Shown here: positions 24,156 to 38,643 of the stretch, piece after piece | How the letters are laid out: every line of letters starts with the position of its first letter | How positions within the stretch are numbered: position 1 is the stretch's first letter | Source of the DNA: a bacterium | Lineage (GTDB): Bacteria; Bdellovibrionota_C; UBA2361; RFPC01 | NCBI GenBank assembly: GCA_009926305.1 | Contig: RFPC01000018.1 | Coordinates: 1 to 38,643 of the forward strand | DNA: 38,643 nt | Direction: 5' to 3' | The notes under the pieces: generated by a model | What the model was told of the DNA's origin: nothing | Database searches by the model: none | What the model saw: only the letters and a program-made list of their open reading frames with translations | Program-made: the position numbers and the translations under genes

Positions 24156-24671
24156 CTAGAACAGAGAAATATCTTTTAAAGACTCGAGAAGCTCATCAGG
24201 GGTCGGTTCTTCTGAAAGAAGCTGCTGATACTGATTCAGATGAATCGAAATAAATGTATCATCGCTTAAGAATGAGAGAGAGAGATCGTTTCCATCGTCA
24301 TTCTTGCTAGCACGAGATGAAACGACTTCTGGTAGAGAAAGAGTGCACGGCTCGGGCAAAAATGCTTTTAAGTTGCCTCCCACAATGTTCACTATCTCCT
24401 TTAGAGCATCAAATATTTGCTCCTCAGTCGGAGCTTCCTCCTCTAAGTCGAACATCTCACGAGCGATCTTGAGTGCAAGCTCATCACTGAAGTGAACAAC
24501 CAGCTTTCCTTCCCACGCTCCCTGTATAGAGATTCCGATCAATGGGCCCTCTAGGCCTGACCAGAGTTCTGCGGTCTCAGCAAGCTCAAAGCCGAGGAGC
24601 ATTTCCCATATCTTTGCGAGAATCTTTCTCAGCTCGCTTTGAATTCGCTCTCGTTCTTGCGCCCTGCTCAT
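24156..24671 (-). CDS. cheX: CheX-like chemotaxis phosphatase
   Basis: This 171-residue protein resembles CheX, which dephosphorylates CheY-P and resets the motor signal. The active-site pattern E-x-x-N is visible as E92-I-V-N95 in 'DALKEIVNIVGGNLKAFLP', the most conserved stretch of the family. The flanking 'SIQGAWEGKLVVHFSDELA' forms the usual beta-sheet edge. The start ATG has AGGGA close upstream, five bases after the cheR stop. It is the last gene of the chemotaxis operon. CheZ is absent here, consistent with CheX as the phosphatase. Confidence 0.83.
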   Translation of the reverse strand: MSRAQERERIQSELRKILAKIWEMLLGFELAETAELWSGLEGPLIGISIQGAWEGKLVVHFSDELALKIAREMFDLEEEAPTEEQIFDALKEIVNIVGGNLKAFLPEPCTLSLPEVVSSRASKNDDGNDLSLSFLSDDTFISIHLNQYQQLLSEEPTPDELLESLKDISLF

Positions 24672-24676
24672 CTTCC

Positions 24677-25501
24677 CTACCCTGTTCTAAGAGTATAACA
24701 TCCACCTCGCTCGAAAGGTCTCCTTATGAAATCATCATCAATATTGAGCGTGGTCTCTGCCGCACCAAGAAATAAAAATCCATCTGGCTGCATTATTTTT
24801 TTTACGTTTCCTAAGATTTCTTTTTTTACCTCAATATCGAAGTAAATAAGCACATTACGCATAAAGACAATATCTGGCTTTCCAAGATTTCCCCATGGCT
24901 GTACAAGATTCATCTTCTTGAACGAGACCATAGATTTAAGATCGTCTTTCACCTTCCACTGCTCTTCATTTTTTGTGAAATACTTAATAAGCATTGAAGC
25001 TGGCAGTCCGCGGTTTACTTCTATTTGGCTATAGATTCCCCGCTCGGCTTTATCGAGAACCTCCTGACAAATATCGGTACCAGTGATTTTCACATCCCAT
25101 CCCTCCAGTTCAGGAAAGTGCTCACGAAGCACCATGCAAATGGAGTAAATTTCCTGGCCAGTTGATGCTGCAGCGCACCAGATGTTGAGAGTTCTCGTTC
25201 TTTTTCGTTCTTCTATCAATTGAGGAAATACCTCTTTTTGAAGCATCTCAAATGGCTTCATATCACGAAAAAAAGAAGTCTCATTTGTCGTCAGCGCATC
25301 AATGATTTTCCCCTTCAGCACCACTTCACCGTTATCGCGTAGCTTTTGCACCATATCGGCGATATCAGCATATCCGCCTTTCTGCACAAGTGGCGCGAGT
25401 CGTGATTCTACCAGGTATTCTTTTCCCTTCTCGAGAACAATTGCAGCTTCTCGGCGAACCATCTCGCTAACAAATAGAAAGTCGTTTTCTAATAAGCTCA
25501 T
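24677..25501 (-). CDS. cheR: Chemotaxis protein methyltransferase
   Basis: CheR methylates glutamates on chemoreceptors using S-adenosylmethionine. The 274-residue protein has the N-terminal helical domain with TTNETSFFRD (71-80). The SAM-binding loop is at about 106-120 (IWCAAASTGQEIYS), then 'ITGTDICQEVLDKAERGIY', and 'FMRNVLIYFD', all characteristic of CheR. No TPR or pentapeptide-binding extension is present. The start overlaps the cheB stop by four bases (ATGA) and uses GGAGGG within cheB as its ribosome site, so the two adaptation enzymes are coupled. Confidence 0.96.
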   Translation of the reverse strand: MSLLENDFLFVSEMVRREAAIVLEKGKEYLVESRLAPLVQKGGYADIADMVQKLRDNGEVVLKGKIIDALTTNETSFFRDMKPFEMLQKEVFPQLIEERKRTRTLNIWCAAASTGQEIYSICMVLREHFPELEGWDVKITGTDICQEVLDKAERGIYSQIEVNRGLPASMLIKYFTKNEEQWKVKDDLKSMVSFKKMNLVQPWGNLGKPDIVFMRNVLIYFDIEVKKEILGNVKKIMQPDGFLFLGAAETTLNIDDDFIRRPFERGGCYTLRTG

Positions 25502-26616
25502 TTCTTGCCCTCCACATCCCGATGTTCTGCCATATTTCGGGAAGCTGCCTTTTGTACTCTACGAATTAATTCTGCTGCGATCTCTTGAAGTGGCAATGCA
25601 TCCTCGGCTAATCCATGCTGAAAAACATAGCCAGGCATTCCCCAAACAACACTCGTATCCTTGTCCTGTACAAGAATTGTTCCATGCTTCTGCTTTAATG
25701 CTTTACATCCAAGCAAGCCATCACTCCCCATACCCGTGAGAACTAAACCAAGAGCACTCTTTCCAAAGTGTTCTGCTACGGAGCGAAACAGAGGATCAAC
25801 TGCTGGACGACATGAATTCTCAGGGGGATCTTGATTTACGTTCAAGACATATCTGGCTCCTGAACGCACTACCTGCATGTGATATTCTCCAGGAGCGATA
25901 TACATAGTATTCGGCTCAAGGGGCATTCCCTCTGCGCCTTCAACGACCCTGATTTGACTACTCGTATTGAGTCGCTCTGCCAAGATTTTGGTAAATCCAG
26001 CTGGCATATGCTGAACACAGACAATCGGCACACCAAGATTCGCCGGAAGATGAGGAATAATTTGTGCTAAAGCATTTGGTCCACCCGTCGAAACCCCTAT
26101 AGCGACAATATCAATTCCCGCCGACTTCTCTTCCTTCTTTACCGATCTCAGGGGCACCACTTTTTCGTTCTGGCTAATCTTGTATTGCTTCGCTGATACG
26201 TGCTCCTCAAGGCTTAAACAGAGTGATGTGATCTTTAATGCGAGCTGCTCTCTAAAAGCCTCTCGCTCACTATTCCACTGATTCCGCATCGGCTTCATTA
26301 CATGATCAGCTGCTCCTGCTGCTATCGCATCTAGCAGCTGCCCTGTATTTCTTGCGCACCGTTCAGAAAAAATAATGATTGGAATATGTGCATCGACTTC
26401 ACGTATTGACTGAATGGTTTGAAGTCCACTCATTTCAGGCATATCAAGATCGAGCAATACAACATCAGGATGCTCTATCGCTATTTTCTGTATCCCAATT
26501 TTTCCACTCTGAGCGGTTGATATGACATCAATATGCTCATTCTCCTCGAAGAGATTTGATATCTCTTTTCGAAAATGAACCTCGTCATCTATCAGAATTG
26601 CTCTAACCTTCGCCAC
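25498..26616 (-). CDS. cheB: Chemotaxis response regulator protein-glutamate methylesterase
   Basis: CheB removes methyl groups from chemoreceptors once its receiver domain is phosphorylated by CheA. At 372 residues it has a receiver domain (acid pocket 'LIDDE' at 8-12, phosphoacceptor D56 in LLDLDMP, 'MKP' lysine at 108), a linker, and the esterase domain with S175 in GVSTGGP, H202 in VQHMPAGFT and D298 in TGMGSDGLLG. The start is GTG at 26616 with AGGGG five bases upstream. It follows cheY by 16 bases and overlaps cheR. Confidence 0.96.
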   Translation of the reverse strand: MAKVRAILIDDEVHFRKEISNLFEENEHIDVISTAQSGKIGIQKIAIEHPDVVLLDLDMPEMSGLQTIQSIREVDAHIPIIIFSERCARNTGQLLDAIAAGAADHVMKPMRNQWNSEREAFREQLALKITSLCLSLEEHVSAKQYKISQNEKVVPLRSVKKEEKSAGIDIVAIGVSTGGPNALAQIIPHLPANLGVPIVCVQHMPAGFTKILAERLNTSSQIRVVEGAEGMPLEPNTMYIAPGEYHMQVVRSGARYVLNVNQDPPENSCRPAVDPLFRSVAEHFGKSALGLVLTGMGSDGLLGCKALKQKHGTILVQDKDTSVVWGMPGYVFQHGLAEDALPLQEIAAELIRRVQKAASRNMAEHRDVEGKK

Positions 26617-26632
26617 GTACCCCTACCTATAA

Positions 26633-27019
26633 TTACTCTGCATCTAGAGACACGCCGATACCGAGTAACGCGATCTTGTCTACCAACATCTCTTTCGTGA
26701 ATGGCTTCATGAGATATTCATTGGCACCTGCTTCCATAGCTTTTACTACTTGAGTCATCTCAGTTTCTGTCGTTACCATCATCAACTTCAACGCCTCATA
26801 GCTCTCCTGCTTTCTAATAGCCTGAACGAGATCAAATCCATTCATTACCGGCATGTTCCAGTCTACTAGAGCAAAAGTCATATCAGCGTTTTCGCCCAAT
26901 ACTTCAAGTGCTTGCTGTCCATTCTCCGCTTCAAGAACACTACAACCAATCTCACGAAGCATTCTCGCTATAATGAACCGCGTTGCGCTTGAGTCATCAA
27001 CCACTAGTGCTTTCATCAT
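26633..27019 (-). CDS. cheY: CheY-type single-domain response regulator
   Basis: This is a 128-residue stand-alone receiver domain: VVDDS (acid pocket D8, D9), phosphoacceptor D53 in VDWNMPVMNG, the switch threonine in 'MMVTTETEM' and the conserved lysine K105 in LMKPF. In this operon it should carry the signal from CheA to the flagellar motor. Two consecutive ATG codons (27019 and 27016) follow GAGGGG; the second has the better spacing. A strong two-tier hairpin lies just upstream of the ribosome site, between the receptor gene and cheY. Confidence 0.93.
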   Translation of the reverse strand: MMKALVVDDSSATRFIIARMLREIGCSVLEAENGQQALEVLGENADMTFALVDWNMPVMNGFDLVQAIRKQESYEALKLMMVTTETEMTQVVKAMEAGANEYLMKPFTKEMLVDKIALLGIGVSLDAE

Positions 27020-27034
27020 CTTTCCCCTCAGTTT

Positions 27035-27082
27035 GCTCCTTCCTCTCTTTCAATACCCTATGCGCAGGGTGGAGGAAGGAGC
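27035..27082. repeat. Two-tier hairpin between chemoreceptor gene and cheY
   Basis: The outer arms are a perfect 11-base inverted repeat, GCTCCTTCCTC (27035-27045) and GAGGAAGGAGC (27072-27082). Between them is a second hairpin, ACCCT-ATGCGC-AGGGT (27055-27070). No T-run follows on either strand, so it is not an ordinary intrinsic terminator. In the minus-strand mRNA the distal arm ends about 10 bases before the cheY ribosome site. Confidence 0.75.
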
Positions 27083-27102
27083 GTTATGCCTTTGTGTGTG
27101 CC

Positions 27103-28875
27103 TTAGTACTGAAATCGTCCTACAAGCTCTTGCAGACCTGCCGCCATTCGCGATAGTTCTCCAGCTGCTTCACTCGTACTAACAACTCCCTCTTTTGTGC
27201 TCTGAGCTGCTTGAGCGACGTTTGAGATATTGTCAGTAATCTCATTACTACTTCGCGATGCTTCAACCACGTTTCGGCTCATTTCATTCGTTGTTGCCGT
27301 TTGCTCCTCTACAGCGCTGGCAATTGTGTTCGAAATATCATTAATTCGATCAATGATAGTGCTGATGTTTCCGATGGCGCCAACGGCACTTTCCGTATCA
27401 GCTTGAATAGCTCCAATCTTTTGGCTGATTTCTTCGGTCGCTTTTGCTGTTTCCTTTGCTAGCTCTTTAACCTCATTAGCAACCACAGCAAACCCTTTAC
27501 CTGCTTCACCAGCACGAGCAGCCTCAATAGTTGCGTTGAGTGCAAGTAAGTTGGTCTGTTCTGCAATCGAAGTAATCACCTTGATCACAGCCCCAATCTC
27601 AGTGCTGCTCACTCCAAGCTTTCCAACTACTTCATTTGTATTTTGCGCTAGACCTACGGCTTCAGTCGCGACACGAGCAGCTTCGTTCGCATTCGTTGCA
27701 ATCTCACGAATGCTCGCTGTCATTTCTTCTGTCCCAGTGGCAACAGTTTGAACATTCTTTGAGACCTCTTGAGAGGCGGAAGAAACCACCTGGGATTGCT
27801 GTGCCGTTTCATCAGCATTTTGAGACATCTGCTCGCTGATAGCATTAAGCTCCTCAGAAGAAGCAGCGAGGTTTGTCGAGTTCTCAGCAATCTGACCGAT
27901 ACTGACTCGTAAATCTCCGAGGAATCCACGTAAAGCATTCGCCATTTGTCCTATGGCGTCGTCACCCTTCAGCTCGATTTCCTTCGTCAGGTCTCCCTGG
28001 GCTGCAGCACTTACCACTAAAAGAATCTGATCAACTTTGTCTCGAAGCTCAGATGCGGCAACTCGCTCAGCCTCTTGTCGAGCCTCATTCTCTTCTTGAA
28101 GACGAATTTTATCAGTGATTACTTCCCAAGTAACCATTGGTCCAACATACTCACCTTGTGAGTTATAAAGCGGGCTTACCAATAGATTTGCTGTCTCAGG
28201 TCCAATTTGAATATGTGCCTCATACGGCAAATTACTCGGATTGCTAAGCAATTCACGTTGATGCGCTGGATTTTTGTGAAAAATATCTATGTTCTGTCCA
28301 ATAGCTTGGTCTGCTGAAATAGGGAGATACTGTTCAATAGAACGAAGAGTCTTATGAGACGCTGGGTTCATATATTGAATATGAAGATCCATATCCGCAA
28401 TCATGATATTTACTGGCGCATTCTCAATAATGCCTTTCATCTGTGCGAGTTCTGACTCATGAGCACTCGCATCTGTGCAGTCAACCCATGACCAAACAGT
28501 TCCGCCAAATCCACTATCTCGAACATACAAAGGATTCGCTGTCGCTTTGAATGTGCGCTCACCAAATGAAAATGTCTTATCAAAAGGAAGTTTTTTGGCA
28601 TTTTTTAACTCAGTATTGACTGGCACTTCACCATAAAGCTCAGCCACATTAGAACCCACTAAATCATCAACACTGACGGGCAGGTGTTCGGAGCATTGCT
28701 CAAACAATTCCCGACATGCATCATTCATAAATGTGATAGTAAGTGAGCGATCAAGAGACATCAAAGCCGCGGGAGCTCCCTCCAGCATTGCATACATGCC
28801 CATATCTGCCTTAGGAAGGCTCATTTGCGCATCTGATCCTCTTCCATTCACTGATTGTCCGTTCTCCGTTGCCAT
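27103..28875 (-). CDS. Soluble methyl-accepting chemotaxis protein with two PAS domains
   Basis: From the ATG at 28875 (AAAGGAGA upstream) this is a 590-residue receptor with no membrane segment. Two PAS-like domains cover about 25-130 ('[20 protein letters not shown]') and about 145-270 ('[20 protein letters not shown]'). A HAMP-like stretch follows at about 290-340 and then the coiled-coil signalling domain to the end. The conserved hairpin tip '[19 protein letters not shown]' is at about 440-460 and binds CheA and CheW. A cytoplasmic PAS receptor suggests sensing of an internal state such as redox or a small ligand; no heme or flavin ligand can be assigned by eye. Between cheW (12 bases) and cheY in the operon. 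There is no C-terminal CheR-binding pentapeptide; it ends in GRFQY. Confidence 0.94.
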
Positions 28876-28941
28876 CGTCTTCTCCTTTAAATAATCAGGC
28901 AAAACCGCATTATCCCGATACAAATCCAAAAATTGTTTTTC

Positions 28942-29472
28942 TTATCTGAGCGCCTCACTTGCTAATCCTCCCAGCGCCTCCTGAAAATGCGCATGGGATT
29001 TATCAAGATGAGAATCAAACATTTCTTCTTTTACTGCTGCTTCCACATCAAGCAATAAGAGCAAGCTGCCATCAAGCTTGAACACACCACTAACTACTGA
29101 ACGTGAAATTGGATCGAGAGTGTCAGGAGCCTCCTCGTATTGACTCTGGGAGACTTCTACGACATCTCCAATTTGATCAACGAGCAAGCTCACGACTTCC
29201 TCGTTTACACCGACTACCACATTCATCGGCTTCTGCTCTCCATTGCCTTGTGATAGTCGTAGGCGCTTTCTGAGATCAATTGCCGTAATGATTTGACCTC
29301 GGAGATTGATTAGACCTTCTACTATTGAAGAAGAGAGTGGAACAGGTGTCATCTCCTGATAGCGAATAATCTCTTGCACCTGCATGACGTTAATACCGAA
29401 AAAGAGATCACCAACGAAAAATGTCGCTAATTGCGTTGTTTCCGTAGGCAATTCTTGATTTTTGATAGCCAT
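28942..29472 (-). CDS. cheW: Chemotaxis coupling protein
   Basis: CheW links CheA to receptors. From the ATG at 29472 (GGAGG six bases upstream) it is 176 residues, the normal single-domain size. Visible features are 'ATFFVGDLFFGINVMQVQEIIRYQ', 'GLINLRGQIITAIDLRKRL' and 'VSLLVDQIGDVVEVS', the three conserved blocks of the family. The open frame reaches back to 29547 within cheA, but the added residues are not CheW-like. The start lies one base after the cheA stop codon, so translation is likely coupled. The C-terminus extends about 20 residues beyond the domain. Confidence 0.95.
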   Translation of the reverse strand: MAIKNQELPTETTQLATFFVGDLFFGINVMQVQEIIRYQEMTPVPLSSSIVEGLINLRGQIITAIDLRKRLRLSQGNGEQKPMNVVVGVNEEVVSLLVDQIGDVVEVSQSQYEEAPDTLDPISRSVVSGVFKLDGSLLLLLDVEAAVKEEMFDSHLDKSHAHFQEALGGLASEALR

Positions 29473-29473
29473 C

Positions 29474-31957
29474 TTACGCCTCCATACCACGCGATATACT
29501 GCTTTCAAGCGACCCTTCAAATTCTGATTGTAGTATCGTGGCCACATCGAGAATGTCAGTTACTTTTCCTTGCACTACTGCTGACCCAGAAATACCTCTT
29601 CGGGCGTGAGCATCGTGTAGGTCGAGTGAGTCTTCTAAAATATCAAGAATCGATTCCACGATGAGTCCCACTTGCTGTCCATCTACGGTACAAACAACGA
29701 CAGAATAGGTGTTTGTTGAGAAATGCTCATTCCCAAAAAATCGTGGGAGATTTAAGAGTGGAAGAATGCCATCGCGATACTGAACGACTTCGTGTCCGCT
29801 GGCATACTCTACAACCTCTCTTGAAAACTCTTCCAGTCGATCAACTCGACCAATTGGTATTCCAAGCTGGCTCGTGGTGCCGCTTCGAACGAGTAAGAGT
29901 GATTGCTTTTCGCTTGTTTCTTCCCCATCTTCTTGCTCATCAAAGCCGTCTTGTGTTTCGCGACCCTCATGCACAATACCAGCCTCACGTCCTAATCCTA
30001 ATATATCGAGAATCAGTGCAACCTTTCCGTCGCCCATTATTGTGGCTCCAGCAAAGACAGGAATATTCTTTACCTGACGCCCAAGCGGTTTCACGACAAT
30101 CTCCTCTGTGTCGTGCACACTCTCAACAATCAGGCCAAAATCCTTATTCTCCGCTCTGACCACTACAATATTCAGGGCTGTACGACGCTCTTCCTCTTGA
30201 ATATCCTCTTGCTTCATTCCGAGCTCTCTTCGTAAATCGACAAGCGGTAAAAGATTTCCTCTTAGTCGATAGAATAGCGCTCCTCGGATCTCTTCAAGGC
30301 CGGAATTTCCACTACCATGTTCCACCCTCAATAACTCAATCAAACTCACTTGAGGAATGGCAAAGCGCTGCTCTTGGCACGAGATAATCAGAGCAGGAAC
30401 AATAGCGAGCGTCAGTGGAATCTTAATCTTCAGCGTTGTTCCTGCTCCTTCCTGGCTCTGTATCTCAACACTGCCACCGATCTTTTCGATATTTGAACGG
30501 ACAACATCCATTCCGACACCTCTGCCAGAAACATTGGTGACCTTTTCTGCCGTAGAAAATCCGGGATGAAAAATTAGACGCTGAACTTCAGCTTCACTGA
30601 GTCGAGAAGCCTTTTCATGAGAATAAATCCCCTTTTCAACTGCTTTTGTCCGTATTCGCTCAATATTGAGACCAGCTCCATCATCCGCGATCTCAATTAT
30701 GACATGCCCACCTTCATGAAAGGCACGCAGCTGCAGGAGTCCTTGTCTATTCTTTCCAGCCTTCTCTCTCATCTCTGGAGATTCAATTCCATGGTCAGCT
30801 GAATTTCGCACGATATGCGTTAGAGGATCTTTGATTGCCTCCAGAATGGTCTTATCAAGCTCTGTGTCTTTTCCCTCCATTTCTACACGAATATCTTTGC
30901 CACATGATCGTGCTACGTCTCTTACTACTCGAGGAAACTTATTCCAAACATTCGCAATTGGCTGCATGCGAGTTTTCATCACCCCCTCCTGAAGTTCGGA
31001 GGTAATAAGATTGAGTCGCTGGCAGGTTCCGAGTAAAGCGGTATCAGTTTCGTTCTTGGTAAATTGAAGAATCTGATTTCTTGCAAGAACAAGTTCACCG
31101 ACTAAGTTCATGACTTTATCTAAGAGCCCCACATCCACACGAAGCGAAGACTCAGTAACACTGGCTCTAGCAGCTTGAGGTGCAGACTCCTTATCTTCCG
31201 CAGCGTCTGCGCTCGCAGAGCTGGATACCTCTTCTTGAGGCAGCTCAGCAGAAGGCGGTATTTCCTCCGCTGATGAGGATGCTTCCATGACCGCTCCCAT
31301 CATTTCCTGCTCAGCGACGGGTTCTTCTTGTTGAAAATCAGGAGAGGCAAGAATCTCTGCTATGAGATCGTGGTTCGCTGTATCTTCGCTAGGCTGCTCC
31401 GAAGACCCTCTCTCTCCATTCGCTGGTGCGCTCGAACTCTCATCGACGTTCTCGCTCAATTCGTCAACGGACGTTTCGATAGAGCATTCTTCTCTCTGCC
31501 CTTCTTTTGGATCGTGCTCAACTTGAGAGTTGGTGCATGCCTCGCCCCCCAACTCATCAGATAGAGCCTCTCCGTCTTTTAGTGCCTGTAGTCGGCCCCT
31601 CAGTGGACCGAAAGAATCCTGACCCTCTGCTCCAGTTGTTTCAATCTTTGTTAAGATAGCCCGAATTGCATCAACCATTTCTAGAAGGGCTGTAGCAATA
31701 TCTGGTGTTACTGAAATTCTTCCACTGCGGAGTTCATCGAGAAGGCTCTCGCCAATATGCGCCACTGCTTCAAGCGTCTGTAAGCCTAAAAATCCACATG
31801 TCCCTTTGATAGTATGAATGGCTCGAAAAATTTTATTGAGAATATCTGTATCAGTTGGATTACTTTCAAGAGCTACGAAGTCTTGATCGAGTTGATCTAA
31901 ACTTTCAAATGCCTCGATGAGGAACTCTTGTATGATCTCGTCTTGCTCATTAGACAT
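29474..31957 (-). CDS. cheA: Chemotaxis sensor histidine kinase CheA with two CheW domains
   Basis: CheA autophosphorylates and passes phosphate to CheY and CheB. From the ATG at 31957 it has 827 residues. The Hpt domain has H48 in RAIHTIKGTCGFLG. A long acidic, Ser/Glu-rich linker (about 155-275) has no clear CheY-binding P2 domain. The dimerisation helix follows ('LLDKVMNLVGELVLARNQI'), then the ATPase domain with N box 'HIVRNSADHGIE', 'IADDGAG' and GRGVGMDVV, and a first CheW domain. A second CheW-like domain (about 685-825) follows a short acidic linker: 'LLLVRSGTTSQLGIPI', 'YRDGILPLLNLPRFF', 'VGLIVESILDIL'. CheA normally has only one. An in-frame ATG 17 codons upstream lacks similarity. 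First gene of the operon; GGGGGA lies 12 bases before the start. Confidence 0.95.
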   Translation of the reverse strand: MSNEQDEIIQEFLIEAFESLDQLDQDFVALESNPTDTDILNKIFRAIHTIKGTCGFLGLQTLEAVAHIGESLLDELRSGRISVTPDIATALLEMVDAIRAILTKIETTGAEGQDSFGPLRGRLQALKDGEALSDELGGEACTNSQVEHDPKEGQREECSIETSVDELSENVDESSSAPANGERGSSEQPSEDTANHDLIAEILASPDFQQEEPVAEQEMMGAVMEASSSAEEIPPSAELPQEEVSSSASADAAEDKESAPQAARASVTESSLRVDVGLLDKVMNLVGELVLARNQILQFTKNETDTALLGTCQRLNLITSELQEGVMKTRMQPIANVWNKFPRVVRDVARSCGKDIRVEMEGKDTELDKTILEAIKDPLTHIVRNSADHGIESPEMREKAGKNRQGLLQLRAFHEGGHVIIEIADDGAGLNIERIRTKAVEKGIYSHEKASRLSEAEVQRLIFHPGFSTAEKVTNVSGRGVGMDVVRSNIEKIGGSVEIQSQEGAGTTLKIKIPLTLAIVPALIISCQEQRFAIPQVSLIELLRVEHGSGNSGLEEIRGALFYRLRGNLLPLVDLRRELGMKQEDIQEEERRTALNIVVVRAENKDFGLIVESVHDTEEIVVKPLGRQVKNIPVFAGATIMGDGKVALILDILGLGREAGIVHEGRETQDGFDEQEDGEETSEKQSLLLVRSGTTSQLGIPIGRVDRLEEFSREVVEYASGHEVVQYRDGILPLLNLPRFFGNEHFSTNTYSVVVCTVDGQQVGLIVESILDILEDSLDLHDAHARRGISGSAVVQGKVTDILDVATILQSEFEGSLESSISRGMEA

Positions 31958-32043
31958 AGGCAAATATAATCCCCCTGCCTCTGGACGTGGCAGGGGAATT
32001 GTCTCCAAAATAATTACAGCAGTTTCTTTCCCTTAGTTCCGCG

Positions 32044-36090: not shown

Positions 36091-37482
36091 TTAGCCTTGA
36101 AGGATTCTGCGCAAAGTCGTCCTGTCAATGCCAAGCAGTCTGGCTGCCTGCATCTGGTTGCCATCGCTCTCTTTCAACGCTCCCTCCACTCGTTCACGCT
36201 TAAAAAGAGCCACTTGCTCTTGTAATGAACGTCTCTCTTGCTCCTTGGATGAAGAGCCTAAAACACCGGCAGAATGCGGCCTAGATTCCGCTTTTTGAAG
36301 CAGCGTAAAATCTTGCGGCAGGATTTCACTGCGACCAGCAAAAGCGGCTCTGGCTGCCGCACTCTGAATAGCAGCCTCAAGTTCTCTGATATTTCCTGGC
36401 CAAGAATACATCTGAAGCTCATCAATCGCTTCTTCAAGGACATGATGAAATCCCACTTCCTCGTTCTCCTGCAACTTCTGAAGATAGGCTTTTACCAGCA
36501 TCGGGATATCCTCCCTTCGGTCACGAAGTGGCGGGATTTGAATACGCTCGTAAGCGATTCGATGGAAAAAATCTTTCCGCAATACCCCATCACGAACAAG
36601 CATATCAACATCACCATTCGTCGCAGAAATAAATCGAATATCAACCGAAGCTTCCTTGTCTGCTCCAAGCTTTCGATATCGCTTATCTTGTAATACCCCC
36701 AGTAATGCCGTTTGTGTCTCAACGGGTAGTCCTTCTATCTCATCAAGAAAGAAAGTCCCCCCATGAGCACTCCGAATTAATCCGTCTCGGGCTGCATCTG
36801 CTCCAGTAAATGCTCCGCGCTCATGTCCAAAAAGCTCACTCGCTAAAACATCAGACCGACTTAATCCTGGTTGATAGCGAATGAAGTCATTCTTAGCTCG
36901 CTGACTGATTCTATGAATCAATCGTGCGCATAAACTTTTGCCGACGCCCGTTTCTCCCTCGAGTAAAATAGGCTGGGTGGTCGAACCTGCTAAGTGCAAC
37001 TGCTGCCTGAGGTCAATGATAGCTTGCGAGGAGCCAACAAGCTCTGTGTGCATCTGCCGATTCACATCTCCTTGAGAGAGCACATCGAGCTCTGACATAA
37101 GCTGATACTGTCGCGCTCCTTCATGAATGAGCGCGGAAAGATGGGGAATATCAGCTGGCTTTACTAGAAAATTTACGGCACCAAGCTTCATGGCTCTGAT
37201 ACCAAACGTCGTATCTCCATGACCAGTAAGAACGATAATCCTTAGGTTCCGATCGATTGCCTGAAGCCGCTGTAAAAGCTCAAAACCGCTCTCAACACCC
37301 CGCGAAGGCTCTAAGCAAAGGTCTATAACTGCAACCTCGGGCTTTTCTTTTTCGCACGCTTCAAGAGCAGCATCTGCGGTTGAGGCAACAAAAATTTCCG
37401 GATTTCTTAATGAAGATGCAAGGGCCTTTCCAAGGCTCGTTACCGCATCACGGTCATCATCGACAAGAAGAAGCGAGGTCAT
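36091..37482 (-). CDS. Sigma-54-dependent response regulator (NtrC family)
   Basis: This 463-residue transcription activator has a receiver domain (acid pocket VDDD at 7-10, phosphoacceptor D54, K108 in LVKP), an AAA+ domain with Walker A GETGVGKS (176-183), GAFTGA (223-228, the sigma-54 contact loop), Walker B FFLDE (244-248), and a C-terminal Fis-type helix-turn-helix (about 430-463, 'GNQMQAARLLGIDRTTLRR'). The receiver has an insertion after D54, LCLEPSRGVESG instead of the usual short MPxxxG. It has GGAG at good spacing within the end of the preceding kinase-like gene, so the two are coupled. Its targets should have TGGCAC-N5-TTGC promoters; I saw none convincing in the window. Confidence 0.95.
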   Translation of the reverse strand: MTSLLLVDDDRDAVTSLGKALASSLRNPEIFVASTADAALEACEKEKPEVAVIDLCLEPSRGVESGFELLQRLQAIDRNLRIIVLTGHGDTTFGIRAMKLGAVNFLVKPADIPHLSALIHEGARQYQLMSELDVLSQGDVNRQMHTELVGSSQAIIDLRQQLHLAGSTTQPILLEGETGVGKSLCARLIHRISQRAKNDFIRYQPGLSRSDVLASELFGHERGAFTGADAARDGLIRSAHGGTFFLDEIEGLPVETQTALLGVLQDKRYRKLGADKEASVDIRFISATNGDVDMLVRDGVLRKDFFHRIAYERIQIPPLRDRREDIPMLVKAYLQKLQENEEVGFHHVLEEAIDELQMYSWPGNIRELEAAIQSAAARAAFAGRSEILPQDFTLLQKAESRPHSAGVLGSSSKEQERRSLQEQVALFKRERVEGALKESDGNQMQAARLLGIDRTTLRRILQG

Positions 37483-37485
37483 AGT

Positions 37486-38136
37486 TTACTCCTGATGAAG
37501 CCACAGTTCTCGATTCGCATGCAATGATGGAACGATTCGCTGAGAAAGAAATGCCGCATCAATTAAAGGAAGCAATGCTGCATGATGAGGAATTTGGGGA
37601 ACTAGCCTTTTACTGAAGAGAAATATTTTATCTTCCTCCTCTTCATTTCGAAAAAGCTCTTGAGTGAACTCTTGGCTTCCCACTATGCAGAGCCCTCGTT
37701 TCTCGATATGCAACTCAATCTGCTGCTGGGAAGGGGTGCCAATAAGCACTTCAAGAATCAATTGCAAGGCGATTTCAAACTGCTTCCGAACCACACTCCA
37801 GACGCAGCGCTCATGCTCATGAACGGTAATCCGAGAAAGGCCTCCTTCAGTCTCACACAGAGCGTGAACGAGCGTACCGACCAAAACCTCTTCGGGCATC
37901 CCCTGTTTCAGAAACGCATCGAAATGCGTGAGTAATTCGTCAATTTGCTGAACTTTTTTTAATCCAATCCCTGCTTCTTCCTCTAATTGCTGGGCGAGAT
38001 AAAGCTGATTCGAGATGACAGATAAGGGAGTTCTTATCTCGTGGCTCAACCCTCGTATGAATATCGAGAAAAGCTCATAGAATATCGATCCATTGTGATC
38101 GCTGGTATTCATCCCACCACTTTCAGAAATTATCAT
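37486..38136 (-). CDS. Histidine-kinase-like protein lacking ATPase motifs
   Basis: This soluble protein (216 residues from 38136, or 208 from the ATG at 38112) has a clear histidine-kinase phosphoacceptor motif: GLSHEIRTPLSV with H32. The second dimerisation helix follows ('IGLKKVQQIDELLTHFDAFL'). The C-terminal part has the layout of a HATPase fold ('FEIALQLILEVLIG', then 'IELHIEKRGLCIVGSQ'), but the N box asparagine, DxGxG and GxGxG motifs are not recognisable. No sensor domain or membrane segment is present. It lies between sthA (6 bases) and the sigma-54 regulator (3 bases), so it is the likely partner of that regulator, perhaps receiving phosphate from another kinase in the manner of the phosphotransferase ChpT. 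The kinase call is secure; inactivity is inference. Confidence 0.75.
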   Translation of the reverse strand: MIISESGGMNTSDHNGSIFYELFSIFIRGLSHEIRTPLSVISNQLYLAQQLEEEAGIGLKKVQQIDELLTHFDAFLKQGMPEEVLVGTLVHALCETEGGLSRITVHEHERCVWSVVRKQFEIALQLILEVLIGTPSQQQIELHIEKRGLCIVGSQEFTQELFRNEEEEDKIFLFSKRLVPQIPHHAALLPLIDAAFLSQRIVPSLHANRELWLHQE

Positions 38137-38142
38137 CAGAGC

Positions 38143-38643
38143 TTATGAAGCACTGCTCAGACGAATCTTATTATAGCCATCATAAGCGGCTACTTTATAA
38201 CATTCAGCCAGGGTAGGGTAATTAAAAACGGTGTCGCGAAGATAATTGAGATCTCCATCCAGCGCCATAACTGCTTGACCGATATGAATAAGCTCTGCGG
38301 CGTACTCTCCGATAATATGCACTCCAAGAATTTTTCGGGTTTCGCGATGAATGAGCAACTTTAACATTCCATTCTCATCCCCAAGAATATGCCCCCTTGC
38401 TATCTCACGATAACGAGCGAGTCCAGTCTCGTATGGGATACCTTCTGCGGTTAACTCATCCTCATTTTTTCCGACATAAGAAATCTCTGGAATAGAGTAA
38501 ATGCCGTACGGAATTAAATCGTACAGATTTGAACAGGTATCTTTTATCTGAAAGGCATGGCAAGCAACCAATCGTCCTTGATTTCCAGACGTTGACGCCA
38601 AAGCGGGAAATCCAATTACATCTCCAGCCGCATAAATATGGGC
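38143..38643 (-). CDS. sthA: Soluble NAD(P) transhydrogenase, C-terminal part
   Basis: The reading frame enters from the right edge of the window, so only the last 166 residues are seen. It begins '[18 protein letters not shown]', the FAD-binding end of the pyridine nucleotide-disulfide oxidoreductase fold. It continues '[22 protein letters not shown]' in pattern, then '[25 protein letters not shown]' in pattern (the dimerisation domain) and ends '[10 protein letters not shown]'. IPEIS-VGK and HRET-ILG-H are typical of SthA, the soluble enzyme that balances NADH and NADPH. Lacking the N-terminus, I cannot check for the loss of the redox cysteines that separates SthA from lipoamide dehydrogenase. 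The stop is six bases before the kinase-like gene. Confidence 0.85.

Follow-up and report, generated by a model that had tools for sequence, protein, structure and literature searches.

Can a protein with the phosphoacceptor helix of a histidine kinase (HK) serve the response regulator encoded beside it if its ATPase motifs are gone? This question is raised by a small ORF near one end of the window, i.e. the whole 38,643-nucleotide stretch of DNA that was analysed. We refer to its product as a pseudo-HK, and the locus is arranged as follows:

36091..37482, minus strand: NtrC-type response regulator, 463 aa (receiver, sigma-54 AAA+ with GAFTGA, Fis-type HTH)
37321..37323, minus strand: codon of Asp54, the phosphoacceptor in the regulator's receiver, which is conserved whether or not an HK-like partner is present
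37486..38136, minus strand: putative pseudo-histidine-kinase (HisKA DHp plus decayed CA), 216 aa, or 208 aa if the start is M9
37489..37893, minus strand: predicted decayed HATPase (CA) domain, spanning approximately residues 82-216 and devoid of the N, D and G boxes (family profile searches, profile-profile comparison)
37897..38079, minus strand: DHp-like hairpin region, residues about 20-80 (HisKA match; profile-profile probability 97.9 for the N-terminal half alone)
38041..38043, minus strand: codon of the phosphoacceptor His32, invariant in 25/25 family members
38143..38643, minus strand: sthA, soluble (Si-specific) transhydrogenase, C-terminal 166 aa, the gene being cut by the contig end (NF003585, 255 bits)

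The preliminary description had proposed a canonical phosphoacceptor helix, SHEIRTPLS with H32, in a protein lacking a sensor domain, and our data agree on both points. HisKA was the sole match in a Pfam scan of the pseudo-HK (residues 26-55), where its 26.4 bits fell just below the cut-off of 26.9, and the same match reached 28.0 bits, above this cut-off, in the genome search. The histidine is invariant in the family, and the DHp helix begins after only some 20 residues, leaving no sensor domain. The family alignment begins at M9, which indicates a possible 208-aa protein with the histidine at position 24. The close spacing described for the locus is also correct, with the regulator 3 bp downstream and the stop of sthA (38143) 6 bp upstream. 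A few kb away, at 24156-32008 of the window (minus strand), lies a chemotaxis cluster whose genes, named from reading the ORFs, are CheX-like, CheR, CheB, a methyl-accepting protein, CheW and CheA.

Searches of related genomes detected pseudo-HK homologues of 190-263 aa at 25 loci in 24 genomes of one order (genome G011 has a second copy), with no match outside this order among the phylum genomes searched. The orthologous regulator is the next gene directly downstream in 25/25 loci, and sthA is located upstream in at least 13 of them. Since the same short protein always precedes the orthologous regulator, it is not a truncation. A pseudogene or truncated kinase fragment might be suspected from the fast divergence: the window protein shares 13-25% identity with the other members in the 25-row alignment and 32% at best, with a congener, in a smaller alignment. 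However, the frame is intact at all 25 loci with the regulator always adjacent, and non-synonymous change (pN 0.26-0.52) is well under the near-saturated synonymous change (pS 0.69-0.88), which means that the gene is fast-evolving yet constrained. Such conservation refutes the pseudogene reading, whose chance we consider negligible. In three regulator-bearing genomes of the order (G007, G009 and G012) the partner was not detected, so the pseudo-HK is dispensable there. A weaker candidate for a second pair occurs in genome G014, where a 186-aa ORF (L150:3064-3624) immediately precedes a second, divergent copy of the regulator; this ORF has a histidine in an HK-like helix (AHMFRKSLSGF) and may be a far-diverged member of the family (E 0.12). 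The sthA-pseudoHK-regulator arrangement was nowhere described among the papers found in our literature search, and the family, similar in kind to known recycled kinases, appears to be new as a family.

The missing N, D and G-box motifs, on which the suggestion of a dead HATPase fold was based, are indeed absent from the family. Pfam detected HisKA in 14 of the 25 members and HATPase_c in none, the window protein included, while HATPase_c was present in 9/9 other kinases scanned from the same genome. The best match of the family in a profile search of the PDB was ZraS (9jfj), covering profile positions 7-204 of 207. When the family profile was compared with that of 54 real kinases, 183 columns aligned at a probability of 98%. 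The C-terminal half alone gave hhalign scores of 27.5-30.6 against real CA domains, far above the column-shuffle maximum of 14.9 (30 shuffles per alignment) and the values of about 9.5 obtained with reversed alignments. In the profile-profile alignment to CA domains, the N box position reads LQLILEV, the Asp-x-Gly-x-Gly of the D box is missing, and (L)PLIDA stands where the GTGLGLAIV helix would start; what remains of this helix carries a near-invariant Asp (D193). These profile data point to the C-terminal half being a decayed HATPase domain, a Bergerat-like fold predicted to be ATP-incompetent. Prediction of the structure from the single pseudo-HK sequence reached a pLDDT of 40, which is too low to bear on the fold.

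An active kinase with unusual ATP-binding motifs would be in line with the HExxT motif kept in the window member. Nevertheless, the CA-like region is shortened, with its motif regions gapped or replaced, and an alignment of orthologues, which the preliminary description had named as a check, shows none of the N, D and G boxes of an ATP-binding site. We therefore regard an active kinase as highly improbable, and the window protein is almost certainly kinase-dead, as had been supposed.

If the protein does not use ATP, which function maintains its histidine? In the alignment of 25 pseudo-HK members, His is found in 25/25, Asn at H+11 in 25/25 and Arg at H+3 in 24/25. The acidic residue at H+1 occurs in only 4/25, one of them the window protein (Glu33), whereas it is present in 62/64 ordinary kinases, which were picked by their ATPase motifs. 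In HisKA proteins, the acidic H+1 is required for the autokinase but not for the phosphatase reaction, and Thr/Asn at H+4 is required for the phosphatase but not for the kinase (PMC3510030); the acidic H+1 acts as the general base for ATP-dependent phosphorylation of the histidine (PMC7005713). The pattern of the helix thus fits the histidine itself as the common requirement, i.e. phosphotransfer over autokinase activity, as far as one can judge from residues. The pseudo-HK could also pair with an intact kinase of its own genome, in which there are 17 further HisKA loci, and be phosphorylated in trans by the CA domain of that kinase within the hetero-dimer; the general base for this reaction, however, is gone in 21/25 members, and we find this very unlikely.

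Position H+4 is divided: 14/25 members have Thr/Asn, and 11/25 have Gly, representing the RGDL variant. In the latter, the H-box HxxRGDL (in one case HxxRGDP) replaces HxxRTPL, the loci concerned being L114 and L116-L124 of genus g14 and L115 of G014. Phosphatase activity is therefore possible in the part of the family with Thr/Asn. The pseudo-HK might even be a dedicated phosphatase or sequestering antagonist, which binds the regulator and removes or blocks phosphate coming from an orphan kinase or acetyl phosphate and is never phosphorylated itself. Outside the order, the regulator keeps an intact receiver with no such partner, making another donor plausible, and PhyT is known to sequester PhyR on top of phosphotransfer (PMC5898713). 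Yet the histidine is kept in 25/25 members, including those with Gly at H+4. Mutation of this residue in HisKA kinases abolishes phosphotransfer while the phosphatase reaction is kept (PMC7005713), which makes transfer the likelier reason for such strict conservation, and we consider a pure antagonist rather unlikely.

We suppose that the pseudo-HK is a soluble, sensorless protein that works without ATP as a dimeric His phosphotransferase/adaptor, with the adjacent sigma-54 activator as its partner, and assign to this reading, which is drawn from sequence comparison, a probability of roughly 0.6. It is suggested by the invariant histidine, the decayed CA domain, the loss of the acidic H+1 in most members and the pairing with a regulator whose receiver is intact. 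Thr/Asn at H+4 in over half of the family, HExxT in the window member and the absence of the partner from three genomes speak against it. According to this scheme, phosphate would come from another protein's receiver, probably that of a hybrid kinase, and pass via H32 to Asp54 of the regulator, and the phosphorylated regulator would then activate sigma-54 promoters; when there is no input, this contact could instead drain the regulator or shield it.

The genome of the window offers several potential donors: there are 18 HisKA loci (17 besides the pseudo-HK), the hybrid kinases with receivers number at least five, and the HPt proteins comprise two of CheA size and a short one. One hybrid kinase (HisKA-HATPase-receiver; contig C65, L156:1868-3841) lies next to a NuoB-like ORF encoded on the opposite strand. 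Outside the family, its DHp is the closest to that of the pseudo-HK, and among the hybrids its receiver is the closest to this regulator pair. Its distribution, assessed with a strict cut-off, does not follow that of the pseudo-HK, and we treat it as a possible donor, a lead only. For CheA, which had been named as a candidate, the survey of HisKA and HPt proteins gave nothing in its favour.

The regulator combines a receiver bearing the phosphoacceptor Asp, an AAA+ domain with GAFTGA and an HTH, and is thus an NtrC-type sigma-54 response regulator; RpoN was found in 41/46 genomes. The receiver Asp is kept in 45/45 aligned regulators, partnered or not, and the receiver Thr and Lys likewise with rare exceptions. 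In class genomes outside the order an orthologous regulator is present, often directly after sthA and with no HK-like gene between them; these loci and three within the order (together L132-L149) have intact receivers and no HK-like partner. Apparently, the regulator without its partner is an orphan whose link to the transhydrogenase extends over a small phylum. Because the partnerless relatives keep the receiver Asp, the regulator was probably phosphorylated from another source at first, and this may still be so. Three changes in the presence of the pseudo-HK are required on the regulator tree, in agreement with its having been gained in the order and lost again, e.g. in G012, although support is weak for many of the deeper branches and the position of the root is uncertain. 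As for the proposed redox control, a scan for the sigma-54 -24/-12 pattern gave only two isolated matches, none close to sthA, and the sole hint that suggests such control is the sthA linkage, which extends beyond the order.

The likeness to ChpT noted in the preliminary description holds for the layout but not for sequence kinship. ChpT, which has itself been termed a pseudo-HK (PMC9981736), is a soluble protein of about 220 aa with a DHp hairpin, an ATP-incompetent Bergerat-like domain and an invariant histidine (PMC3433190), and shares this layout, as predicted for our family, together with Asn at H+11 (in the four ChpT sequences read). Unlike most of the family, it retains Asp at H+1, and the partner of the pseudo-HK, unlike that of ChpT, is an adjacent sigma-54 activator. 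Membership in the ChpT family was not supported: profile comparison gave a probability of 1.5-1.9%, with low power as the ChpT alignment was small, and Pfam HPTransfase (PF10090), essentially absent from the window's class, matched none of the 25 members.

By description, PhyT (formerly PhyP) of Sphingomonas is closer in design than ChpT, since it has a degenerate ATPase domain and a phosphotransfer histidine, is encoded at its regulator's locus, and acts on this regulator by phosphotransfer as well as by sequestration (PMC5898713). It differs in being a membrane-anchored alphaproteobacterial protein with a periplasmic domain, an HRxxN DHp motif and PhyR as partner. Spo0B, a kinase-like dimeric DHp phosphotransferase (PMC3433190, PMC5898713), is likewise comparable by description, with another organism and other partners. 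ZraS is the nearest solved homologue by profile, and ZraS/NtrB-type HisKA kinases partner NtrC-type regulators, such as the one adjoined by the pseudo-HK gene; compared with them, the pseudo-HK has lost the ATP-binding motifs, the sensor region and mostly the acidic H+1.

Tentatively, and at slightly under even odds, one can suggest that a kinase-dead HK family arose independently and was inserted between sthA and a previously unpartnered regulator, opening it to a multi-kinase phosphorelay, and that one genus rebuilt the H box (RGDL for RTPL), leaving a transfer signature of little beyond His, Arg and Asn. Few kinase-dead phosphotransferases have been described so far (ChpT, PhyT and Spo0B), and here a separate family stands beside one regulator order-wide, while the regulators of sister lineages occur without it. 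This “with/without” comparison makes testable the route from a decayed kinase to a relay or adaptor, as well as what a HisKA helix must retain for phosphotransfer after the loss of ATP-dependent phosphorylation.
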